Of a DNA stretch of 48,951 nt, positions 35,697 through 45,354 are shown one piece after another. Within the stretch, counting starts at the first letter, position 1, and each line of letters starts with the position of its first letter. The position numbers and the translations under genes were made by a program. The notes below the pieces were generated by a model. The model searched no databases and was not told the origin of the DNA. It worked only from the letters and a program-made list of their open reading frames with translations. Origin of the DNA: Deltaproteobacteria bacterium. Lineage in GTDB: Bacteria; Myxococcota_A; Polyangia; JAAYKL01. Location: NCBI GenBank assembly GCA_030595125.1, contig JAUVDV010000038.1:1-48951 (forward strand). The letters run 5' to 3'.

Positions 35697-35972
35697 ATGA
35701 CTGAAGAACGCTACTCCACCTATGAAACCAAGGCCCGGCTGAGCGAGATCCTGCGCAAGGTGCGACGCGGCCGCGAGGTCATCATAAGCAGCCGCGGTGT
35801 GCCCGTGGCGCGTATCGTCCCTTATGAAAAGGAGCGCGAAGATCACGAGGAACGGCTCGATCGGCTCGCCGCTTCCGACGTCCTCGGTCCGGCTCGCGGA
35901 CGACTCGAGGCTGTGGCGCCCCTCGGCGAGCGCCCCGGGGCGCTCAAACGGTTCCTCGACGATCGGGACTGA
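35697..35972 (+). CDS. Type II antitoxin, Phd/YefM family
   Basis: 91 residues. The N-terminal fold is the Phd/YefM type: YSTYETKARLSEILRKVRRGREVIISSRGVPVARIVPY, which dimerises and binds DNA. The C-terminal third is charged and would wrap the toxin. It precedes the toxin gene by three bases, as in most such operons, and carries a palindrome over its promoter for autoregulation. Phd-type antitoxins paired with PIN toxins are well known. Confidence 0.9.
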   Translation: MTEERYSTYETKARLSEILRKVRRGREVIISSRGVPVARIVPYEKEREDHEERLDRLAASDVLGPARGRLEAVAPLGERPGALKRFLDDRD

Positions 35973-35975
35973 TCG

Positions 35976-36374
35976 ATGGTCGTCGCCTATGTTGATACGT
36001 CGCTGGTCGTGGCGCTGGCGTTCGATGAGCCGTCTGTGGCCGGGTTTTCCGATCGACTCGGTCGCATCGACCGCCTCTGCTCCTCAACGCTGCTCGAGGC
36101 CGAGCTGCTCGCAGCAGCAGAGCGTGAGGGGTTGAGGTCCGGGGCGCGGCGTTTCATCGAGCCGATCCACTTTGTTTTCCCCGATCGCCGGCTCTCCAAC
36201 GAGATCGACGCTGTCCTGGCCTGCGGATACATCCGCGGCGCGGATCTTCACCACCTCGCAACGGCGCTGTTTCTGTTCGACAAACCTGCCGGAGCGTTCT
36301 TCCTTACCCTCGACACACAGCAAGATCGGTTCGCAACCGCGCTCGGTTTTTCCGTGCTCGACGACCTCGGCTGA
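35976..36374 (+). CDS. Type II toxin, PIN-domain (VapC-like) ribonuclease
   Basis: 132 residues. The PIN-domain acidic centre can be read: the first Asp in AYVDTSLVVAL (residue 7), Glu in LLEAELLAA (about 42), Asp in RGADLHHLATAL (about 92), and a last Asp in LDTQQDRFA (about 109). Such toxins cleave tRNA or rRNA under Mg2+ until the antitoxin binds. It is complete in length, so the pair is probably functional. Confidence 0.9.
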   Translation: MVVAYVDTSLVVALAFDEPSVAGFSDRLGRIDRLCSSTLLEAELLAAAEREGLRSGARRFIEPIHFVFPDRRLSNEIDAVLACGYIRGADLHHLATALFLFDKPAGAFFLTLDTQQDRFATALGFSVLDDLG

Positions 36375-36473: not shown

Positions 36474-36502
36474 TTGCAAACCGTAACGTTATGGTTTATG
36501 GT
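36474..36502 (+). promoter_or_regulatory. Fic gene promoter with 20-bp palindrome in the spacer
   Basis: AAACCGTAACGTTATGGTTT (36478-36497) is a 20-bp inverted repeat with a single mismatched pair, centred at 36487/36488. It fills the gap between TTGCAA (36474-36479) and TATGGT (36497-36502), which are 17 bases apart. This is the position where MerR-family dimers bind. The predicted transcript begins at or close to ATG 36509. Confidence 0.55.
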
Positions 36503-36508
36503 TTTGCC

Positions 36509-37483
36509 ATGATCTTTGATCGGCTTACAGAAAAGAAGAAGATGCTGGACAGCTATAAACCGCTGCCAGATTCTCTTGTTCGCAATCTTGATGACTGGTT
36601 TCGAGTCGAGCTCACCTACACCAGCAACGCCATCGAAGGAAACACCCTGACTCGCCTGGAAACCGCGCTTGTTGTTGAGAAGGGACTGGCGGTGGGGGGG
36701 AGGTCCCTCGCCGAACATCTGGAAGCCACCAACCACGCTTCTGCATTGGCCTGGGTGAGCGACCAGGCGAAACGCAAGCCCTCCACACTGAGACAGGACG
36801 ATATCCTGCATATCCACAGATTGATCCTCAGAGGAATCGACGATGAAAATGCAGGCCGCTACCGCAATGTGCCCGCAAGGATCTCCGGGTCACGCGTCGT
36901 GCTGCCAAACCCCAGGAAGGTACATTCCCTGATGAAAGGCCTGGAGAATTGGCTCGCCGAGCCCGGTGACCTGCACCCGGTGGAGTTCGCCGCCGAAGCT
37001 CACCTCAGGCTGGTTACAATTCACCCTTTTGTCGATGGAAACGGCAGGACCGCCAGGCTGCTAATGAACATGATCCTGCACATGCTCAATTACCCCGCCG
37101 CCATCATTCGCAAACGGGATCGGCTGGCCTACATCAGCGCCCTGGAAAAATCACAGATCGGTGGACCCAAGGACGACTATCTAAAAATCATCGTCAAGGC
37201 CGTCGGTTGTTCCCTGGATATACATCTGAAAGCAGTCAGGGGCGAAGACGCAAAACCGCCTGATGACGACAAATTACTCAAAATAGGTGCCCTGGCGAAA
37301 CAGGTCGGCGAGAGCAACTCCACCATCCGGCATTGGACAAAGGAAGGCCTGCTTGACGTCGCCGAGATTACCGAAGCCGGATACCAACTCTACTCCGCCG
37401 ACATGGTCGAACGAGTTAAACGGATCCACGCTCTCAAAGAGCGTCGCCTGACGCTCAAAGAAATCCTGGGCCACCTTAAATAG
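36509..37483 (+). CDS. Fic-domain protein fused to a MerR-type DNA-binding domain
   Basis: 324 residues from ATG 36509 (ATG 36491 is also in frame but lies inside the palindrome). Fic proteins transfer AMP or another nucleotide to protein hydroxyls. The core motif HPFVDGNGRTAR is intact (catalytic His172). The inhibitory helix motif TSNAIEGN lies N-terminally, so the enzyme is of the self-inhibited class. After a short linker, residues ~256-324 form a MerR-type winged helix: LLKIGALAKQVGESNSTIRHW, TKEGLL, then GYQLYSADMVERVKRIHALKERRLTLKEIL. Many Fic proteins end in a different winged helix; a MerR domain is less usual. No antitoxin-like partner follows. It probably represses or activates its own promoter through the palindrome. 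Confidence 0.85.
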   Translation: MIFDRLTEKKKMLDSYKPLPDSLVRNLDDWFRVELTYTSNAIEGNTLTRLETALVVEKGLAVGGRSLAEHLEATNHASALAWVSDQAKRKPSTLRQDDILHIHRLILRGIDDENAGRYRNVPARISGSRVVLPNPRKVHSLMKGLENWLAEPGDLHPVEFAAEAHLRLVTIHPFVDGNGRTARLLMNMILHMLNYPAAIIRKRDRLAYISALEKSQIGGPKDDYLKIIVKAVGCSLDIHLKAVRGEDAKPPDDDKLLKIGALAKQVGESNSTIRHWTKEGLLDVAEITEAGYQLYSADMVERVKRIHALKERRLTLKEILGHLK

Positions 37484-37532: not shown

Positions 37533-38819
37533 CTAGATCAGGGATAGGATCGCTTTGAGAATGGAGCCGTTGCGGGAAACGCCTGCCATACCGCAGTTGC
37601 AGCCGTCGTTTGTGAGGTTCAACGAGTCGGAATCGGAATCGGAATCGGAGTCGGAATCGGAATCGGAATCGGAATCGGAATCGGAGTCGGAATCGGAATC
37701 GGTGTCGGAATCGGTGTCGGAATCGGTGTCGGAATCGGTGTCTGTATCCGATCCGGTCTCGGTGCAGGTGGAGGGTTCGCCGGTGCAGTCCCAGCCGTCT
37801 TCGACATCACAGTTGTCATCGCAGCCATCGCCGGTGGCAGTGTTCAGATCGTCGCACTCCTCGGGAGGGCAGATGAATCCGTCGCCGCAACCGGTCTCCA
37901 CCGCAGAGCAGTCGCCGTGACATCCGTCGCAGTCGACGGTGTTGGTGTCGTCACACCCCTCACCGGCGGTGGTGTTGGTGGTGCCGTCACCACAGACCAT
38001 CGCGGTGCAGTCGGCGTCGCAGGTGGCGGACTCACCGGAGTCGTCGCAGTCCTCGCCGGCGGTGGTGTTGGTGGTGCCGTCACCGCAGGCCACCGCGGTG
38101 CAGTCGGCGTCGCAGGTAGCGGACTCACCGGAGTCGTCGCAATCCTCGCCGGCGGTGGTGTTGATGGTGCCGTCACCGCAAGAGACGAAAGTGCAGTCGG
38201 CGTCGCAGGTGGCGGACTCACCGGCATCGTCGCAGTCCTCGCCGGTATCGGTGGTGCCGTCGCCGCAATAAGGACCAGTGACGTACTGCACCTCTACCAG
38301 CGAATAGGAGCTTGTCTCTGTCCAGAGATCTTGAGCGGGCGTGGTGTTGAGATTGTACTGCATTCCAAGTCTGTGAAGGGTAACCGCCTGGCTGTCGATG
38401 GTGGTGGCATATGTATCTGACCCTCCATATGGATTGCTCATGGAACTTGTGCCGCGAGCTCCCAGGATGCCGATGATGTCTCCTGTGAAGATGTCGATAT
38501 CGCACGCGATCCAGCCGGTGCCTGCCACATTGGTCCATCTGCCGAGAGAAGTGAAATCGTTTGAAGTGGAGGAGTAGACAGGTACGGGTGTGTTGAACAG
38601 CACGATCTCAATGTTCTGCACGCCGGTACCGGCTTCAACCGGGACTCTCAAACCCGTGATATTGAAATCAACGGGCGATATGAAGTGGTAGCCTCTGGTA
38701 GTACTGCCGGTATAGTTGGTGCTCCACGACCCCACATTGATTTCGGCGGCCTCAATAGAGCCGACCGCCGACAGTACGATCAGGGCACCGAACATTGAAA
38801 CAACGATTCGTTTTCTCAT
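37533..38819 (-). CDS. Surface protein with DUF4215 Cys-rich repeats, Ser-Asp linker and shortened C-terminus
   Basis: 428 residues from ATG 38819, which has GGAGA just upstream (ATG 38831 is less likely). A signal peptide (ends SIEA) is followed by a ~170-residue beta-rich domain. Next are five Cys-rich DUF4215-type repeats (CGDGTTNTTAGEDCDD units), encoded by nearly identical 93-bp DNA repeats. A ~45-residue Ser-Asp run made by a hexanucleotide repeat follows. The end reads DGCNCGMAG, then SILKAILSLI and stop. This resembles the MYXO-CTERM anchor (Cys motif, transmembrane helix, Arg cluster) but stops partway through the helix with no Arg. Anchoring to the surface may therefore be lost. Confidence 0.8.
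   Translation of the reverse strand: MRKRIVVSMFGALIVLSAVGSIEAAEINVGSWSTNYTGSTTRGYHFISPVDFNITGLRVPVEAGTGVQNIEIVLFNTPVPVYSSTSNDFTSLGRWTNVAGTGWIACDIDIFTGDIIGILGARGTSSMSNPYGGSDTYATTIDSQAVTLHRLGMQYNLNTTPAQDLWTETSSYSLVEVQYVTGPYCGDGTTDTGEDCDDAGESATCDADCTFVSCGDGTINTTAGEDCDDSGESATCDADCTAVACGDGTTNTTAGEDCDDSGESATCDADCTAMVCGDGTTNTTAGEGCDDTNTVDCDGCHGDCSAVETGCGDGFICPPEECDDLNTATGDGCDDNCDVEDGWDCTGEPSTCTETGSDTDTDSDTDSDTDSDTDSDSDSDSDSDSDSDSDSDSDSDSDSLNLTNDGCNCGMAGVSRNGSILKAILSLI
37620..37746 (-). repeat. Hexanucleotide microsatellite encoding Ser-Asp linker
   Basis: About twenty units of TCGGAA/TCGGAG/TCGGTG on the plus strand, read as alternating Ser and Asp codons on the minus strand. Unit gain or loss keeps the frame and changes linker length. 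Confidence 0.8.
37980..38255 (-). repeat. Tandem 93-bp repeats encoding DUF4215 modules
   Basis: The block beginning GTGCCGTCACC recurs at 37981, 38074 and 38167, exactly 93 bases apart, with very few differences. The near identity points to recent duplication or gene conversion within the coding sequence. Confidence 0.75.
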
Positions 38820-38930
38820 GGTATTCTCCATTTATCGAACGTCCGCTTTGGTGCCATCGCTATCCTGCTTATACTACAAAAAGAATCTATATTTCAGGCT
38901 TTCAGGCTGATCACCCCCCTGGCGGCGACC

Positions 38931-40064
38931 CTACAAACACTCCTCAAGAATTGCCGCCACTCTTTTCCCCACGCCCGGCGGACCGAGAGAATCGGTCACT
39001 TTCTTCAGCTCGGCCCGCTGGGATTTTGCGACATCGGGTTGTAATAAATTACGCGCCGCGTCGAAGATCGATTGGCCTGTAACCCGGTCCTGCAACAACT
39101 CCGGAACGATTGCGCGCCCGGCGATCCAGTTGGGCAGTCCGATATAGGGAATGTCCATCGCAAACTGAGCGACCGCCCAGCTCACGCGATCGATCTTGTA
39201 TACTACGGCCATGGGCGCCCCCTCCAGCGCCGCCTCGATGGTAACCGTGCCCGACGCCACGATCGCCGCGTCGCAGGCCCCGAGAAGATCTCTCACCGTG
39301 ACGTCACAAGGCAATACAACGCACCCGGCGGAACGAGCGGCGGTAATTGCCTGCGGACTGGCCGCACGGGGAGCCGGCGCGAAGACCGAGCATATCCCCT
39401 CCCTGACCAACCTCAACCCGGCCTCGGTCATCGGTCCGCAAAGGGACTCTACCTCGCTGGTCCGCGACCCGGGCAAAAGCGCCACAAGGGGAGTCCCCTT
39501 CGCCAGGTGCAGCCGCTTTCGAACGGTTGACCTCGGGGCCGAGGGTTCCTCGTCGAGGACGGGATGTCCGACGCATGTGGCCTTCACCCCGGCTCGTCGA
39601 TAAATGTCCTCCTCGAACGGGAGAACCAGAGCAACGTGATCCGTGCGCTCTTTCAGAAGTCGAAGACGCCCCCTGCGCCAGGCCCAGACCTGGGGCCCCA
39701 CGTACTGAACCACCCTGATCTTCTTGTCGCTCAGCACACGCGCAAGCGGAAGATTCACGTCCGGAGCGTCCACCAGCAACGCCACCGCAGGCCTTCGACG
39801 ATCGATATGCTCGCGAAGCCGTGCCCAGGCGGAGCACCACGCGCCAAACCTCCCCACGGACTCGGCGATTCCCAGAGCTGTAAGATCCCCGATATGGGCC
39901 ACCAGATGGACTCCGGCCGCCGCGAGATGGTCGCCGCCAATCCCGAACACTTCGCGTTCGCCGAAAAGATCGAGCGCCTCTACCACCCGTGCCGCAGCTC
40001 GATCTCCCGACGGCTCGCCGGCCACTACCAGCACCCCCCCCGCGCTTGTTTCACCTGTGTACAT
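38931..40064 (-). CDS. lpxB: Lipid-A-disaccharide synthase
   Basis: 377 residues, the usual size. It condenses UDP-diacylglucosamine with lipid X to make the tetraacyl disaccharide of lipid A. Motifs: AGEPSGD at the N-terminus, VLLPGSR-like VALLPGSRTSEV (about residue 195), ASGTVTIEAALEGAPMAVVYK (about 265-285, the GT-B nucleotide-binding region) and PNWIAGRAIVPELLQD. The 5' end contains a run of eight C (plus strand 40034-40041) within the first ten codons, a possible slippage site. It diverges from the DciA-like gene. Confidence 0.95.
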   Translation of the reverse strand: MYTGETSAGGVLVVAGEPSGDRAAARVVEALDLFGEREVFGIGGDHLAAAGVHLVAHIGDLTALGIAESVGRFGAWCSAWARLREHIDRRRPAVALLVDAPDVNLPLARVLSDKKIRVVQYVGPQVWAWRRGRLRLLKERTDHVALVLPFEEDIYRRAGVKATCVGHPVLDEEPSAPRSTVRKRLHLAKGTPLVALLPGSRTSEVESLCGPMTEAGLRLVREGICSVFAPAPRAASPQAITAARSAGCVVLPCDVTVRDLLGACDAAIVASGTVTIEAALEGAPMAVVYKIDRVSWAVAQFAMDIPYIGLPNWIAGRAIVPELLQDRVTGQSIFDAARNLLQPDVAKSQRAELKKVTDSLGPPGVGKRVAAILEECL

Positions 40065-40132
40065 GGCCTCCTGAAGGTATCTTCATTCGCTCGTCGTTGC
40101 CAGACTCGACGCTACATCATAAACTCCCGGCG

Positions 40133-40456
40133 ATGAAAAGACTCAAGAGAAGCTCCGAAACCTCTCCCATCCACGCCGAAGTGACTTCGGTTCTGCGGGA
40201 GATGTGCCGCCGCAATAGATCGGTCCACCCGGAGATATGGGCCCACTGGCCCGAGATAACAGGACCAGAGATCAGCGCCCGTGCATTTCCGCACTCCCTG
40301 AAGGCCAAGATCCTCACAGTGGGGGTCGTGAACTCGACCTGGCTTCATGAGCTGAGCTTCCTCAAGAACGACCTGCTCGATAGGATCGCCGACAAGGTAG
40401 GGCCGGGTGTAGTAGTGGAATTACGGCTGGTCCTGGACACGAAAAGACCGGAATAG
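40133..40456 (+). CDS. DciA/DUF721-family protein
   Basis: 107 residues from ATG 40133. The DUF721/DciA pattern is visible: a basic start, then VTSVLREM, HPEIWAHWPEITGPEISARAF and ILTVGVVNSTWLHELSFLKNDLLDRI. DciA-type proteins load the replicative helicase DnaB in bacteria lacking DnaC. The frame continues open upstream over lpxB but that part is not credible. The gene is convergent with the pseudo-receiver gene. Confidence 0.75.
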   Translation: MKRLKRSSETSPIHAEVTSVLREMCRRNRSVHPEIWAHWPEITGPEISARAFPHSLKAKILTVGVVNSTWLHELSFLKNDLLDRIADKVGPGVVVELRLVLDTKRPE

Positions 40457-40467
40457 GAGATCTGCTC

Positions 40468-42363
40468 TTATTCCTCTTCTTCCTCTTCTTCCTCTTCGCC
40501 GTCTTCATCGCCTGCCAGCTCGTCGAGAAGCCCGGCCGCAATTTCCATCGCCTGCCTGGCCTTGGCGACGACGGTGTCGTTGCGCTCGATGATCTCATTG
40601 GCCTCGTCGAGTTCCCCTTCAAGCTCAGTGATCCGCCCGCCCCGCTTGCTGCAATCTTCCTCGAGTTGATCACCCCTGTCCTTGGCAGAACTCAACTCCG
40701 CCTTGACGGACTCGTTCTCGGAGGTCAATGACTCCAGCTTCTGCTCGGCCTCCTTGAGCGCGCCCCTGGATTCCTGCAGCTCGTTGCTCCTCTCGTCGAG
40801 CAAAGTCTGGGTTGCCGCAAGCTCCTCCCTTGCCTCCTCCAGATTTGTCTTGGTCTCTTCGAGATCCACCTCCATGGCGCGAGTCTTTTCCTCGTTATCG
40901 TAGAGCTTGCTCTTGTACTCGCCAAGGGCCTGGTTGTGAGCCTCTAGCACCTCTTCGGCCTTGCTCTTGTTCTGCTCGTCTTGCTCGTCGAGGGCAGTCT
41001 GCTTTTCGAGCTCGAGTTTCTCACCAAGCTCCTCCGAAGCCGCCTCATGCCTTATCCGCTGCTCCGTGAGATCAGTCTCGCGTGCCTTCTCGGCCTGTTC
41101 GTTGAGCTCTTTTTCCTGCTCCTCGAGGGCCGTGTTTTTCTCTTCCATTAGCTCGCCGCGCAGATCCCGTAGTGCAGACTCCTTCTCCTCGTCCTTCTCG
41201 CCTCCCAGCCTATTGCACTCCTCGACCTTCTCCGCCTCGAGCCTCTCAACGTCGGCCTTGCGCTCGGTCTTCTCGTTGTCGAGATCGCCCTCGAGCCCGT
41301 CGATCTTGCTCTGCTGGGCTTCCACTCTCTGCTGAAGATCGTCGGCTTTCTTGCCAAGGATTTCCTTGTCGGACGTGAGGTTATTCACCTTGTCCTCAAA
41401 ATCGGCGATCTTCTTCTCTGCCGCGATGTTCTTGTCTTCCAGGTCGGCGCTCGCCCGTTCGAGATCCGTCAGGCGTTCCCGCGTCTCGAGAAGTTGCTTC
41501 TCCTTGTTGTTGACTCCGTCCTTGAGATCGAGCAGATCCCGATCTTTCTTGTTCAGGAGCTCGCGCAGATCCAGAAATTCACGGCTCGAAACGCCTCCAC
41601 CTTTGGAGGTTTTGGCCTCGGCCACCTCTTTCTCCAGACGCGCAACTTGTTCCTTGTAGCTGTCGTTGTCACGGGTCAGCTTGGCGATCTCTTCGCTATC
41701 TCCGGCAGCTTGTGGAACGGGGACGGCCTCCGGCTCAGGTTCCGGCTTCTCCTCTTCTTCATCTACCGAAATCGCATCGAAGGCTGATTCGGTGAAAGAA
41801 TCAACCTCATCATCCACTTCGATCACGTCCTCCGCATCGTCGGCCTCCACCTCCTCGATCTCCTCTAGCTCCTCTAGTTCTTCTATCTCTTCCATCTCCT
41901 CGATATCGTCGATGACCACATCGTCGTCGTCGTCTTCTTCTATGACCAGTTCGTCATCGTCATCTTCCACAACGAGTTCTTCTTCTTCCAGGCCGAGGAG
42001 CCCGGCCATGGCAGAGAAAAGAGCCGCCGCGTCAAAGGGCTTCAGTAGATATTCGTCCGCGCGCACTTTGAGTTTTTTATGTTTGTCAAAGGTCTCCTGG
42101 TTCGCCTCCGCCGAGGTGATAACCAGAGGAATCCCTTTTGTGGCCGCATTTTTACGCAGCTTGTTGCACACGGAAAAACCGCTGATGCGAGGTAATTCGA
42201 TGCACAAGTAAATGAGGTCATGGGTTCCGGTCACGGCTCGCTCGAGGCCCTCCGCTCCATCAGACACGACTTCCACGTCAAGTCCGCGCGCACCCATATC
42301 GTCGTTGAGCATCTGTGCGTATACTGGATCAGGTTCGAACGCGAGGATGTGTTTTCCCGACAT
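40468..42363 (-). CDS. AglZ-like protein: pseudo-receiver domain plus long coiled coil
   Basis: 631 residues. Residues 1-~125 form a response-regulator receiver fold close to the N-terminus of Myxococcus AglZ (PRISGFSVCNKLRKN, PLVITSAEA, FDKHKKLKVRADEYLLKPF). The phosphoacceptor Asp is replaced by Cys54 (YLCIELP), whereas the conserved Lys108 and Ser/Thr remain, so it cannot be phosphorylated in the normal way. Residues ~126-190 are extremely acidic (Glu/Asp runs). From ~215 to 605 is a heptad-rich coiled coil, and the tail is poly-Glu. AglZ is a polarity and gliding-motility scaffold. A GGAG ribosome-binding site precedes the ATG. It follows the TolQ-TolR-OMP genes in the same direction. Confidence 0.8.
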   Translation of the reverse strand: MSGKHILAFEPDPVYAQMLNDDMGARGLDVEVVSDGAEGLERAVTGTHDLIYLCIELPRISGFSVCNKLRKNAATKGIPLVITSAEANQETFDKHKKLKVRADEYLLKPFDAAALFSAMAGLLGLEEEELVVEDDDDELVIEEDDDDDVVIDDIEEMEEIEELEELEEIEEVEADDAEDVIEVDDEVDSFTESAFDAISVDEEEEKPEPEPEAVPVPQAAGDSEEIAKLTRDNDSYKEQVARLEKEVAEAKTSKGGGVSSREFLDLRELLNKKDRDLLDLKDGVNNKEKQLLETRERLTDLERASADLEDKNIAAEKKIADFEDKVNNLTSDKEILGKKADDLQQRVEAQQSKIDGLEGDLDNEKTERKADVERLEAEKVEECNRLGGEKDEEKESALRDLRGELMEEKNTALEEQEKELNEQAEKARETDLTEQRIRHEAASEELGEKLELEKQTALDEQDEQNKSKAEEVLEAHNQALGEYKSKLYDNEEKTRAMEVDLEETKTNLEEAREELAATQTLLDERSNELQESRGALKEAEQKLESLTSENESVKAELSSAKDRGDQLEEDCSKRGGRITELEGELDEANEIIERNDTVVAKARQAMEIAAGLLDELAGDEDGEEEEEEEEE

Positions 42364-42497
42364 TTCTTATCTCCTTCGTGAGGCGCGAGCACCCCGCAAC
42401 CATCCGACTTTCCGTCAATACTGGCAGACTAGGAGATAACTCCGCTTTGGTCAACGCCGCCGCGTCAAACAGCAGGTCAGACATATGCTTCGGGTGC

Positions 42498-43226
42498 TCA
42501 TATATGCACGATGAAGCTGCCGTTCATCCCACCGATAGTTCCGTAGGCACCCTCGTAATCTCCGGTAAAGGAGAAAAAGCCGAAATATCCGTTGGCGCTC
42601 ACCGACAGCCACGAGGTCACTGAAAACGCCAACCCGATCCCCACATCTCCAGCAAAACCGGACCCGGAATCGATGGCCCTTCCCATCAACAGCGGCCCCT
42701 CGTCCAGGTAGAGTACACCGATGCGCGTCTGGAAGTTGAGTTCGATGCGCCCAATGGGAAGGCCGTACTTGATCTGGGCCATGACGCGATGCAGATCGAT
42801 GGTGCCCGAATCGAGGAACTTTCTGCCGGTAGCCCTGTTCTTCTCCGGCCTGTAACGGTATCGCTTGGAATAGCCATCCATGGTCACGGAATCCCAGACA
42901 TAAGCCCCCCCGAGCGACAGGGAAAAAAGCTTGATACCGGCGGAGGCTCCCAGGGAGAACCCGGCGCCCGCGAAATATGCCTTGCGCCCGACCGAGCCCT
43001 GAACCTCGTTCGGATCCACGGCGCTCCAATCGTCTTCTATATCGTCATCGGGATCGTCGTCCCCGGAGGTAATGAAGCTCTTCTCTATTTCCAGAGTCTT
43101 CACGGTAACTCGGCTGAAACCGACGAGTGGCTCCAGGTAGAAACCAACACCTTCAACCGCGCGTGCGCCGTTACAAAATACCGTTATGCCAAGCAGGAAT
43201 ACAAACGGGAATATCGACTTCTTCAT
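42498..43226 (-). CDS. Predicted outer-membrane beta-barrel protein
   Basis: 242 residues with a cleavable signal peptide (ends NGARA). The mature part alternates hydrophobic beta strands (VGFYLEPLVGFSRV, AGAGFSLGASAGIKLF, LSLGGAYVWDS, IELNFQTRIGVLYLD, VGIGLAFSVTSWLSVSANGYFGFFSF), matching an 8- to 10-strand barrel. An acidic loop (DDDPDDDIEDDW) lies near residue 60. The last residue is Ile rather than the common Phe. It sits 16 bases after the TolR-like gene and is probably co-transcribed. No specific family is recognised. Confidence 0.7.
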   Translation of the reverse strand: MKKSIFPFVFLLGITVFCNGARAVEGVGFYLEPLVGFSRVTVKTLEIEKSFITSGDDDPDDDIEDDWSAVDPNEVQGSVGRKAYFAGAGFSLGASAGIKLFSLSLGGAYVWDSVTMDGYSKRYRYRPEKNRATGRKFLDSGTIDLHRVMAQIKYGLPIGRIELNFQTRIGVLYLDEGPLLMGRAIDSGSGFAGDVGIGLAFSVTSWLSVSANGYFGFFSFTGDYEGAYGTIGGMNGSFIVHI

Positions 43227-43242
43227 GCCATATCACTCGACA

Positions 43243-43671
43243 TCACTCGACTTCCCCCGAGGGCGTCCTTGCCTTGATCGCGATCGCCAGCTTTCCAAAC
43301 CCGATCCGTTTGGCCAGGTCCATCACTTCGACTACGCGTCCGTGACGCGACCCTTCATCCGCCCTGACCACCACGACAGCATCCTCACTCTGCGCGTATT
43401 CACTACTCAGGATCCCCTCGAGTCTCTCCAGTGTCACAACCACATTATTGTATCGCAGCTCGCCGTCCGCCCTGATCGCGATAGTGAAATCCTTCTGGTG
43501 ATTGGCGACCTGATCCACGGAAGCCTTCGGCAGGCTGATATCGAGGTTGGGATTTTTTACATATGTCGCCGTGAGCAGGAAGAAGATCAGCAGCAGGAAA
43601 ACGACATCAACCAGGGGAGTTATCTCCAGCGCCGCTATTCCCTTGGAGCTTGCCTTGCTGCGGAAGTTCAT
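43243..43671 (-). CDS. exbD: ExbD/TolR-family protein (second copy)
   Basis: 142 residues. The single transmembrane helix begins ITPLVDVVFLLLIFFLLTATYV, with the essential Asp in LVDVV. The periplasmic domain ends in KARTPSGEVE. It overlaps the upstream channel gene by four bases (ATGA). It differs clearly from the ExbD at 15913 and forms a separate motor with the partner at 43668. Confidence 0.9.
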   Translation of the reverse strand: MNFRSKASSKGIAALEITPLVDVVFLLLIFFLLTATYVKNPNLDISLPKASVDQVANHQKDFTIAIRADGELRYNNVVVTLERLEGILSSEYAQSEDAVVVVRADEGSRHGRVVEVMDLAKRIGFGKLAIAIKARTPSGEVE

Positions 43672-44327
43672 GAAGCCTCACTGTCCTTCGCGCCATCTGT
43701 GCCTCCTCCAAGGGGAGCGAGAGAACCGACAAGCCGCAGAGCCCCTTCCTCCATTGCCAGGGAGTGGCGAACGGTTCGGGACAGGAGATAGCGATAGCCC
43801 ATGAAGGCGATGATGGCCACGCTGAGTCCCGCGGCTGTTGTGATCAGGGCCTGCCAGATACCGTTGGCAAGCTGACCGGGATCCACCGCGCCCGATCTGG
43901 ATGTGACAACCACCTTCTGAAACACCTGTATCATTCCGGTGACCGTTCCAAGGAGCCCCAGCAGCGGCTCGATGCTCGCCGTGGTGCCCATTGCCTCGAT
44001 GTTGCGCTCCATGCGGGAGATCTCCTGCTTGCCCACCTCCTCGAAGAGCCCTTTGATGGCCTCGCGATCGGCGCCCTTGGCCTCCACGCCCGCCAGCATC
44101 ACGCGACCCATCGGGCTGTTACTCCGCAAGCACTCGTCACGTGCCGTCCCGAAATCACCGTCGTTGACGAGCTTCACTACTCTATCCACCAGGCCGCCGG
44201 GGATTATCCGACTCTTCTGCAGGGCCCACATCCGCTCCAGGAAGATCGCCAGGGCGACGACCGAACCGAGCGCTATGGGGATCATTACTACGCCGCCTCG
44301 GGACAGATATTCGAAAACCTCTTTCAT
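43668..44327 (-). CDS. exbB: TolQ/ExbB/MotA-family proton channel (second copy)
   Basis: 219 residues from ATG 44327, preceded by GAGGAG. Three transmembrane helices: residues ~12-30 (VVMIPIALGSVVALAIF), then IEPLLGLLGTVTGMIQVF and ALITTAAGLSVAIIAFMGYRYLL. It is the first gene of a four-gene minus-strand cluster ending in the AglZ-like protein. In Myxococcus a MotA/TolQ-type channel with two TolR-type partners powers gliding, so this could be a motor for cell-surface movement or envelope work; that is inference. Confidence 0.9.
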   Translation of the reverse strand: MKEVFEYLSRGGVVMIPIALGSVVALAIFLERMWALQKSRIIPGGLVDRVVKLVNDGDFGTARDECLRSNSPMGRVMLAGVEAKGADREAIKGLFEEVGKQEISRMERNIEAMGTTASIEPLLGLLGTVTGMIQVFQKVVVTSRSGAVDPGQLANGIWQALITTAAGLSVAIIAFMGYRYLLSRTVRHSLAMEEGALRLVGSLAPLGGGTDGAKDSEAS

Positions 44328-44427
44328 ATTCTCCTCATACACAGGCCGGAAAAACACGATGCATATCTTCCGTCCGGCCGCTCAAGAACCAATCGTTGCC
44401 AAAGACCCCTTTAATGTCAAACGTGTT

Positions 44428-45354
44428 ATGCTCCTTTTCGCAGTGCAAAGACGAGTAAGAAATCACCTCATCTACTTTTTCGCCCGTGCGGCCATCGCCG
44501 TTCTAGGTCTTGCGCCTTCCTTCGCGGCGCGACGAGCAGGACTGATCCTGGGCGCCCTCGGCCACACCCTGGCAGGCGCGGAACGCCGCCTCGCCCGTAG
44601 CCAGATCGCCACGGCTCTGGATCTAGACAAGAACTCGAACCGCGCGACGCTCCTCACCAGAGGTGTCTTTTGCCACCTGGGCGTGAGCGTTGTCGAACTC
44701 TGCCGCATCTTGCGCTCGAGCAACAACTCGCCCAACGTCGTTATTCCGCCCTCCAGCCGCCGGACCCTCGATGATGCGCTGGGACAGGGGCGGGGTGTTA
44801 TTTTCGTCACCGGGCACATGGGCAACTGGGAGCTCATGGCCCGCTTCCTCGCCACCGAGGGGTACCCCATCTCTACCATGGCCGCGAAGAGCTACGACCC
44901 CCGGTTCACCAGGCTTCTCGAACGTGGACGGGCGCAGTTTGGAGTTGATGGTATCTACCGGGGCCAGCCGGGTTCGTCTGCAAGAATGCTGCGCGCTCTG
45001 CGAAACAACCGCGTCCTGGGAATGCTGATCGACCAGGATACGAGCGTTCCCAGCGTGTTCGTCCCCTTCTTCGGCAAGCTCGCCCACACCCCCGTCGGCG
45101 CGGCTTCTCTCGCTTCACGAACCGGCGCGTCCATTGTCGTGGGCTCCATGAGACGACGATCCGACGGAACCCACATTCTGGAAATGGAGCCGTTCGCTCT
45201 CGCCGATGACGACCTCAAATCCACCGCGGCCCTGACCCTGGCTCTCGAAAGGAGAATCAGGCGGCACCCCAGCCAGTGGGTATGGTTTCACAAGCGATGG
45301 AAGACACGACCCGACTTAACATCGGACACTGCGCATCGGAAGAGAGCCGCATGA
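44428..45354 (+). CDS. LpxL/HtrB-family lipid A acyltransferase
   Basis: 308 residues from ATG 44428; the frame continues upstream over the divergent exbB gene but that is not credible. Motif GHMGNWEL carries the HxxxxE catalytic dyad of late acyltransferases, and LIDQDTSVPSVFVPFFGKLAHTP and the VWFHKRW end motif are typical. An N-terminal hydrophobic segment anchors it to the inner membrane. It should add a secondary acyl chain to the lipid A made via lpxB. It overlaps the next gene as ATGA. Confidence 0.85.
   Translation: MLLFAVQRRVRNHLIYFFARAAIAVLGLAPSFAARRAGLILGALGHTLAGAERRLARSQIATALDLDKNSNRATLLTRGVFCHLGVSVVELCRILRSSNNSPNVVIPPSSRRTLDDALGQGRGVIFVTGHMGNWELMARFLATEGYPISTMAAKSYDPRFTRLLERGRAQFGVDGIYRGQPGSSARMLRALRNNRVLGMLIDQDTSVPSVFVPFFGKLAHTPVGAASLASRTGASIVVGSMRRRSDGTHILEMEPFALADDDLKSTAALTLALERRIRRHPSQWVWFHKRWKTRPDLTSDTAHRKRAA

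Follow-up and report, generated by a model that had tools for sequence, protein, structure and literature searches.

A conserved cluster of TolQ-TolR, outer-membrane barrel and FrzS-like genes in a Polyangia family, a possible envelope module

A stretch of 48,951 nucleotides from contig JAUVDV010000038.1 of a Polyangia draft genome, referred to as the window, was analysed. It is part of a 5.39 Mb assembly, labelled G000. Four adjoining genes on the minus strand of the window encode a TolQ-type channel, a TolR protein, an outer-membrane barrel, and a protein with a pseudo-receiver domain and a coiled coil, called here the FrzS-like protein. These four genes are probably a real conserved unit. 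The explanation favoured here, tentatively and short of being held probable, is a conserved envelope module in which MglA-type polarity control would act on a different TolQR motor through a FrzS-type scaffold, a coupling that would have arisen independently of AglZ. It is read from synteny only. An earlier note on this DNA had described a channel and stator pair, a barrel and a pseudo-receiver coiled-coil protein encoded in the same direction, and the four genes are indeed arranged in this way.

The four genes

The genes are listed in the order in which they are read.

43668 to 44327, minus strand: TolQ/ExbB-type proton channel, 219 amino acids (aa), ATG start; PF01618, 101.4 bits
43243 to 43671, minus strand: TolR/ExbD-type stator, 142 aa, one transmembrane segment with a conserved Asp; PF02472, 105.3 bits
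42498 to 43226, minus strand: small outer-membrane beta-barrel by predicted structure, 242 aa, probable signal peptide
40468 to 42363, minus strand: FrzS/AglZ-family protein, 631 aa; PF00072, 50.5 bits; best PDB match FrzS 2gkg

The genes for TolQ and TolR share a 4-base overlap, and an alternative GTG start for TolQ is also open at 44357. The membrane Asp of TolR is kept in 49 of the 49 lettered rows in an alignment of 50. Both proteins score well under the equivalog cut-offs of the tolQ, exbB, tolR and ExbD models. The cluster is distinct from the ExbB-ExbD-TonB operon found at 15.2-17.2 kb in the window, as the earlier note had stated. A simple site scan did not find a promoter-like site in the region, nor a terminator-like site in the gap before the FrzS-like gene.

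Conservation within the family

The family of the window was sampled with 14 genomes, in a total set of 59 (45 non-family). A scan of contigs identified 25 loci, 12 from this family, all from uncultured metagenome-assembled genomes. A close TolQ is present in 13 of the 14 family genomes, the exception being G006. The FrzS-like protein is likewise present in 13, the exception being G003, in which the contig ends just after tolR. Wherever both are present (12/12 family genomes), TolQR and the FrzS-like gene adjoin and are in the same direction. Since it recurs in all 12 of these genomes, the arrangement is not due to chance. The lowest identities within the family are 59% for TolQ and 51% for the receiver protein, therefore the gene order is old. 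Conserved synteny had been proposed as a check of the cluster, and for TolQR and the FrzS-like gene it is present. Among open-licence PMC papers, no such locus was described in the titles or abstracts found.

The barrel gene sits between TolR and the FrzS-like gene in 9 of 12 family loci. Its own family is confined to this locus, occurring in 9 of the 59 genomes and in the same place each time.

The FrzS-like protein

The protein consists of a pseudo-receiver domain (approximately residues 1-125), an acidic linker, a long coiled coil, and a C-terminal helix motif. The best PDB relative of the receiver is the FrzS pseudo-receiver of Myxococcus xanthus (2gkg, E 2.4e-16). In the window protein the phospho-acceptor Asp is replaced by Cys. 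The 13 family rows have either Cys (7) or Ser (6) at this position, and the phospho-Asp is also absent from 26 of 28 rows from other families. The long coiled coil is well supported, because the 376 residues from 225 to 600 lack Pro and show a hydrophobic period of 3.5 residues, which none of 500 shuffles reached. The C-terminal helix motif is found in 8 of 13 family rows and 19 of 28 rows from other families, compared to 20 of 4100 shuffled tails. As the motif is common to both sets, the whole protein, rather than the receiver alone, seems to be homologous.

In 13 of the 14 family genomes the FrzS-like protein is single-copy, with scores of 189-216 bits and the next receiver at 77 bits or less. 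According to passages of PMC4546325, the duplication that separated FrzS and AglZ is placed in the Cystobacterineae, and the single copy of relatives is called more FrzS-like. By sequence comparison the receiver protein is a member of the FrzS/AglZ family that appears to lie outside the AglZ lineage and, because of its single copy and this published duplication, is best named FrzS-like. AglZ was considered as a name and rejected, there being one FrzS-type copy in each of the 13 family genomes that have the protein. The description of the protein as 'AglZ-like' in the earlier note is therefore right as to family, given the 2gkg match, the lost phospho-Asp and the coiled coil, but not as to AglZ proper, given the single copy. 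Part of one paper (PMC12204202), citing a paper on CglB, calls AglZ a secreted vWA protein; this conflicts with the account in PMC4546325 and looks like a slip in the name.

In M. xanthus, MglA binds both FrzS and AglZ, as reported in sections of PMC2907295 and PMC4546325. A roadblock (MglB-type) protein is present in all 14 family genomes, as is PilT, and in the genome of the window an MglA-like GTPase is encoded directly downstream of the roadblock gene. With these proteins present, the FrzS-like protein may instead work as FrzS does, together with MglA and pili.

The small barrel

The barrel protein has no Pfam or NCBIfam match. It has an N-terminal hydrophobic stretch, and AlphaFold2, with nine relatives as input, predicted a barrel of eight long strands (mean predicted local distance difference test score, pLDDT, 78.7; predicted template modelling score, pTM, 0.69). 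Foldseek matched it only to general outer-membrane barrels, with OprG, NspA and the OmpA barrel among the nearest folds. The template modelling score to the nearest folds is approximately 0.45 or less by query length, with OprG and NspA among the better overlaps.

Affiliation of the TolQ-TolR pair

The AglRQS motor of M. xanthus is made up of one TolQ and two TolR homologues in a row, as given in Table 1 of PMC3169522 (Luciano 2011). The same table gives lengths for the Agl/Glt core of 1191 aa for GltD, 471 for GltE, 245 for AglR, 162 for AglQ, and 194 for AglS. A cluster of this kind is present elsewhere in the genome of the window.

G000 contig C2, 14000 to 30000 (locus L238): Agl/Glt-type core cluster, by order, domains and lengths

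It contains tetratricopeptide repeat (TPR) proteins of 771, 1215 and 475 aa, a TolQ of 225 aa, two TolR proteins (169 and 191 aa), and a protein of 510 aa that matches TonB_C weakly. The triad of one TolQ and two TolR is at 22260-23889 of C2. The cluster appears to resemble the Agl/Glt core in gene content, a likeness set by order, domain and length and not by M. xanthus sequences. The glt core genes linked to AglRQS (those for TPR proteins and GltG) are absent beside the window pair, which is flanked by lpxL, the barrel gene, dciA and lpxB. By gene content, the window pair is firmly not the AglRQS motor. That identity was rejected because the pair has a single TolR and the genome has its AglRQS-type triad, flanked by TPR genes, on C2.

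In the 140 genomes sampled from the phylum, the GltJ model (NF033761) had weak matches that all stayed below the cut-off, and it gave no sure positive in any genome covered. At E 1e-60 it matched none of 26 genomes of one order, and the controls were likewise unmatched.

The AglR-type rows in the trees were named by gene order, and an M. xanthus AglR is not among them. In the TolQ tree of 91 rows, the window TolQ is in a branch of mostly one-TolR pairs (support 97/98), with the AglR-type triads (100/95) and the Tol-Pal/Exb clade (100/99) separate from it. A trimmed tree of 84 rows was made by dropping 7 (two rows of L004, and L005, L237, L143, L142 and L233), six of which were flagged for long branches, the second L004 row being unflagged. 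In this tree the AglR type (100/93), the window family (100/99) and Tol-Pal (100/99) each form one clade. The TolR tree (88 rows) likewise has the window family, AglQ type, AglS type, Tol-Pal and Exb each as one clade.

In approximately unbiased (AU) tests, joining the family with the AglR type gave p 0.006 on 91 rows and p 0.114 on 84 rows, and the same join made for the wider window group gave p 0.148 on the trimmed set. The phylogeny proposed in the earlier note against the AglR, AglQ and AglS types is therefore answered in part, with separation in the best trees and a rejection of the AglR grouping that holds on the full set and not on the trimmed one. A position of the window pair other than as sister to the AglR type is favoured by these trees. 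Joining the family with Tol-Pal was rejected (p 0.00015 and 5e-6). This grouping, which the earlier note had counted against its own proposal, was not seen. A housekeeping Tol-Pal pair was rejected as an identity on the basis of these AU tests and of the C68 pair of the same genome, which is placed with E. coli TolQ. C88, a TonB-linked pair also from this genome, is in the TolQ branch of the window, on a long branch (1.68) flagged as unreliable.

Relatives outside the family

Distant TolQ relatives were taken from 39 loci out of 51 non-family matches above approximately 148 bits, some of them clipped by contig ends. A FrzS-like gene is beside TolQR in none of these 39 loci of the class. Receiver proteins are found near three of them, all on the opposite strand to TolQR: a 592-aa receiver-domain protein approximately 7 kb away in L127, and short receiver open reading frames (140-161 aa) in L130 and L131. 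In loci of family f7 (within L119-L146), the genes that follow TolQR of the window's branch encode a septum protein, DivIC, and a GAF-GGDEF protein. An M15-type peptidase follows TolQR in family f5 (L109-L112), and part of family f8 has a hybrid histidine kinase as neighbour.

For the FrzS-like protein, the best match per genome gave 28 loci (L050-L077) from the 45 non-family genomes. One of these is clipped at a contig end (L055), and in two the best reading frame is probably not FrzS-like (L069 and L075). TolQR is present in none of the 28, these three clipped or doubtful loci included. The neighbourhood in these loci is a different one, with the FrzS-like gene after an extracytoplasmic function (ECF) sigma factor gene (20 of 28) and a zf-HC2 anti-sigma gene (14), and before hflX (16). 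The earlier note had also counted against its proposal any finding of the AglZ-like gene without TolQR elsewhere, and this is what was found, both in these loci and in one genome of the window's own family (G006).

A proposed envelope module

The favoured module starts from what is seen directly: the genes, their conserved adjacency, the single FrzS-like copy, the lost phosphosite, the TolR Asp, and the roadblock, MglA-like and pilT genes. In its favour, TolQR and the FrzS-like gene adjoin in 12 of 12 family genomes, compared with 7 of 12 testable loci that keep the lpxB/dciA flank, and the barrel family is confined to this locus. TolQ and TolR are described as making a proton-driven pentamer:dimer motor in the sections of PMC12204202 drawn upon. 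The window pair would be a proton-driven motor of this 5:2 kind. The small barrel, where it is kept, would be the dedicated outer-membrane partner that takes up the work of the motor at the outer membrane. The pseudo-receiver coiled-coil protein would be a FrzS-type cytoplasmic scaffold, gathering the motor at a pole or another site. It may place or switch the motor under the MglA/MglB polarity system, as AglZ does with AglRQS. The four proteins would thus act together, with the scaffold touching TolQ and MglA binding the scaffold. As the motor is of another branch, the scaffold would have been recruited to it separately, and the module would not be the ancestor of the Agl machine.

Several points weigh against this module. 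Beside and divergent from tolQ is lpxL, in 12 of 13 tolQ-bearing loci, which makes it almost as constant as the FrzS-like gene. A TolA/TonB-type transducer is absent from the locus. The FrzS-like gene is separated from the barrel gene by 91-203 bases in the family, or from TolR by 106-219 bases where the barrel is absent. The barrel is absent from 3 of 12 loci, and G006 has kept the FrzS-like gene, dciA and lpxB without any close TolQ. Neither the barrel nor TolQR is therefore indispensable to the FrzS-like gene.

The lipid A genes and their neighbours in the window are as follows.

44359 to 45354, plus strand: LpxL/HtrB-type lipid A acyltransferase, divergent from tolQ; PF03279, 131.8 bits; start not fixed, reading frame taken from 44359
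39989 to 40456, plus strand: DciA/DUF721 protein, convergent with the FrzS-like gene; PF05258, 54.3 bits; true start not fixed
38931 to 40064, minus strand: LpxB, lipid-A-disaccharide synthase; PF02684, 229.7 bits; TIGR00215, 199.6 bits, above cut-off

Also in the window are a toxin-antitoxin-like pair (35697-36374, plus strand) of a Phd/YefM antitoxin (PF02604) and a PIN protein (PF01850), a Fic protein with a C-terminal MerR-type helix-turn-helix (36491-37483, plus strand), and a probably secreted protein (37533-38831, minus strand) that has a long Ser-Asp repeat as well as CGDG repeats, which are rich in Cys and match DUF4215 weakly.

The main rival to the module is a single move of the FrzS-like gene, at the time of the family's ancestor, into a lipid A island of lpxL, tolQR, barrel, dciA and lpxB, where it then stayed. 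The FrzS-like protein would then serve type IV pili and MglA polarity like FrzS, and TolQR would have another job. This is a serious possibility, if a doubtful one. It is consistent with the constancy of lpxL, with dciA and lpxB on the far side of the FrzS-like gene in 7 of 13 loci (7 of 12 testable, L045 not being testable), with the locus of G006, with PilT in every family genome, and with the different conserved neighbours (ECF sigma, zf-HC2, HflX) that the FrzS-like gene has elsewhere in the class. However, TolQR and the FrzS-like gene still adjoin in the loci with a broken lpxB/dciA side (L040, L044, L047, L048 and L049), including L047, in which lpxL was not found.

It is unlikely that the pair is instead an accessory energiser, with TolQR powering outer-membrane upkeep or the handling of lipid A or lipopolysaccharide, a TonB/TolA-type transducer encoded elsewhere, the barrel as target, and the FrzS-like protein at most a placement factor. 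The flanking lpxL and lpxB suit this explanation, as do the TonB-linked C88 pair in the same TolQ clade and the DivIC and GGDEF proteins or M15-type peptidase near the same TolQR branch elsewhere, which are envelope and division themes. Against it, the locus has no TonB or TolA gene, and the C88 row is the one on the unreliable long branch.

The earlier note had proposed that the cluster is, in compact form, related or ancestral to the Agl gliding motor, which is very improbable. In favour of this, a FrzS/AglZ-family scaffold does adjoin a TolQR motor and an outer-membrane barrel, and grouping with the AglR-type TolQ is not rejected once the 7 rows are dropped. Against it, the pair has one TolR, groups with one-TolR pairs in the best trees and is without adjacent Glt-type TPR genes, and the grouping is rejected by the test on the full set. 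The genome has its AglRQS-type triad and its Glt-like genes on C2, and GltJ had no match over cut-off in the 140 genomes sampled from the phylum, though with a model that lacks a sure positive.

Comparison with known systems

The envelope module would have a wider meaning if the FrzS/AglZ scaffold has been harnessed to TolQR twice, once in the Cystobacterineae, where AglZ goes with AglRQS, and a second, independent time at this locus, to another TolQR branch and together with a new small barrel. This stronger form is somewhat unlikely. To our knowledge, most of what is known of how a Ras-like polarity switch hooks onto a trans-envelope proton motor comes from a single system, that of AglZ and AglRQS. 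If the scaffold was harnessed twice, the locus would be a compact envelope motor steered by MglA, and it would offer a natural test of the way in which proton motors are captured by polarity scaffolds. A second, independent pairing of only four genes would reveal which features of scaffold and motor are required, in a small unit outside Myxococcus, and FrzS-type scaffolds would be general adaptors rather than parts specific to motility. The lasting interest of the locus is that a scaffold of the FrzS/AglZ type may here have been paired with a proton motor for a second time, the reading as an Agl ancestor being mistaken.

With FrzS and AglZ of M. xanthus, as described in part of PMC4546325, the window protein shares a long coiled coil and a receiver fold that lacks the phospho-acceptor. 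It differs from them in being single-copy and encoded beside TolQR and lipid A genes, in a comparison that included no AglZ sequence. The window pair has in common with Tol-Pal TolQR and ExbBD the PF01618 and PF02472 families. Unlike these, it is below the equivalog cut-offs and outside the Tol-Pal clade, and no tolA, tolB, pal or TonB gene is among the scanned window neighbours of TolQR. What it shares with AglRQS of M. xanthus is a proton motor of the TolQ/TolR type with a putative tie to a scaffold of the FrzS/AglZ family, whereas the window locus has one TolR rather than two, another branch of the best TolQ tree, and no Glt genes.

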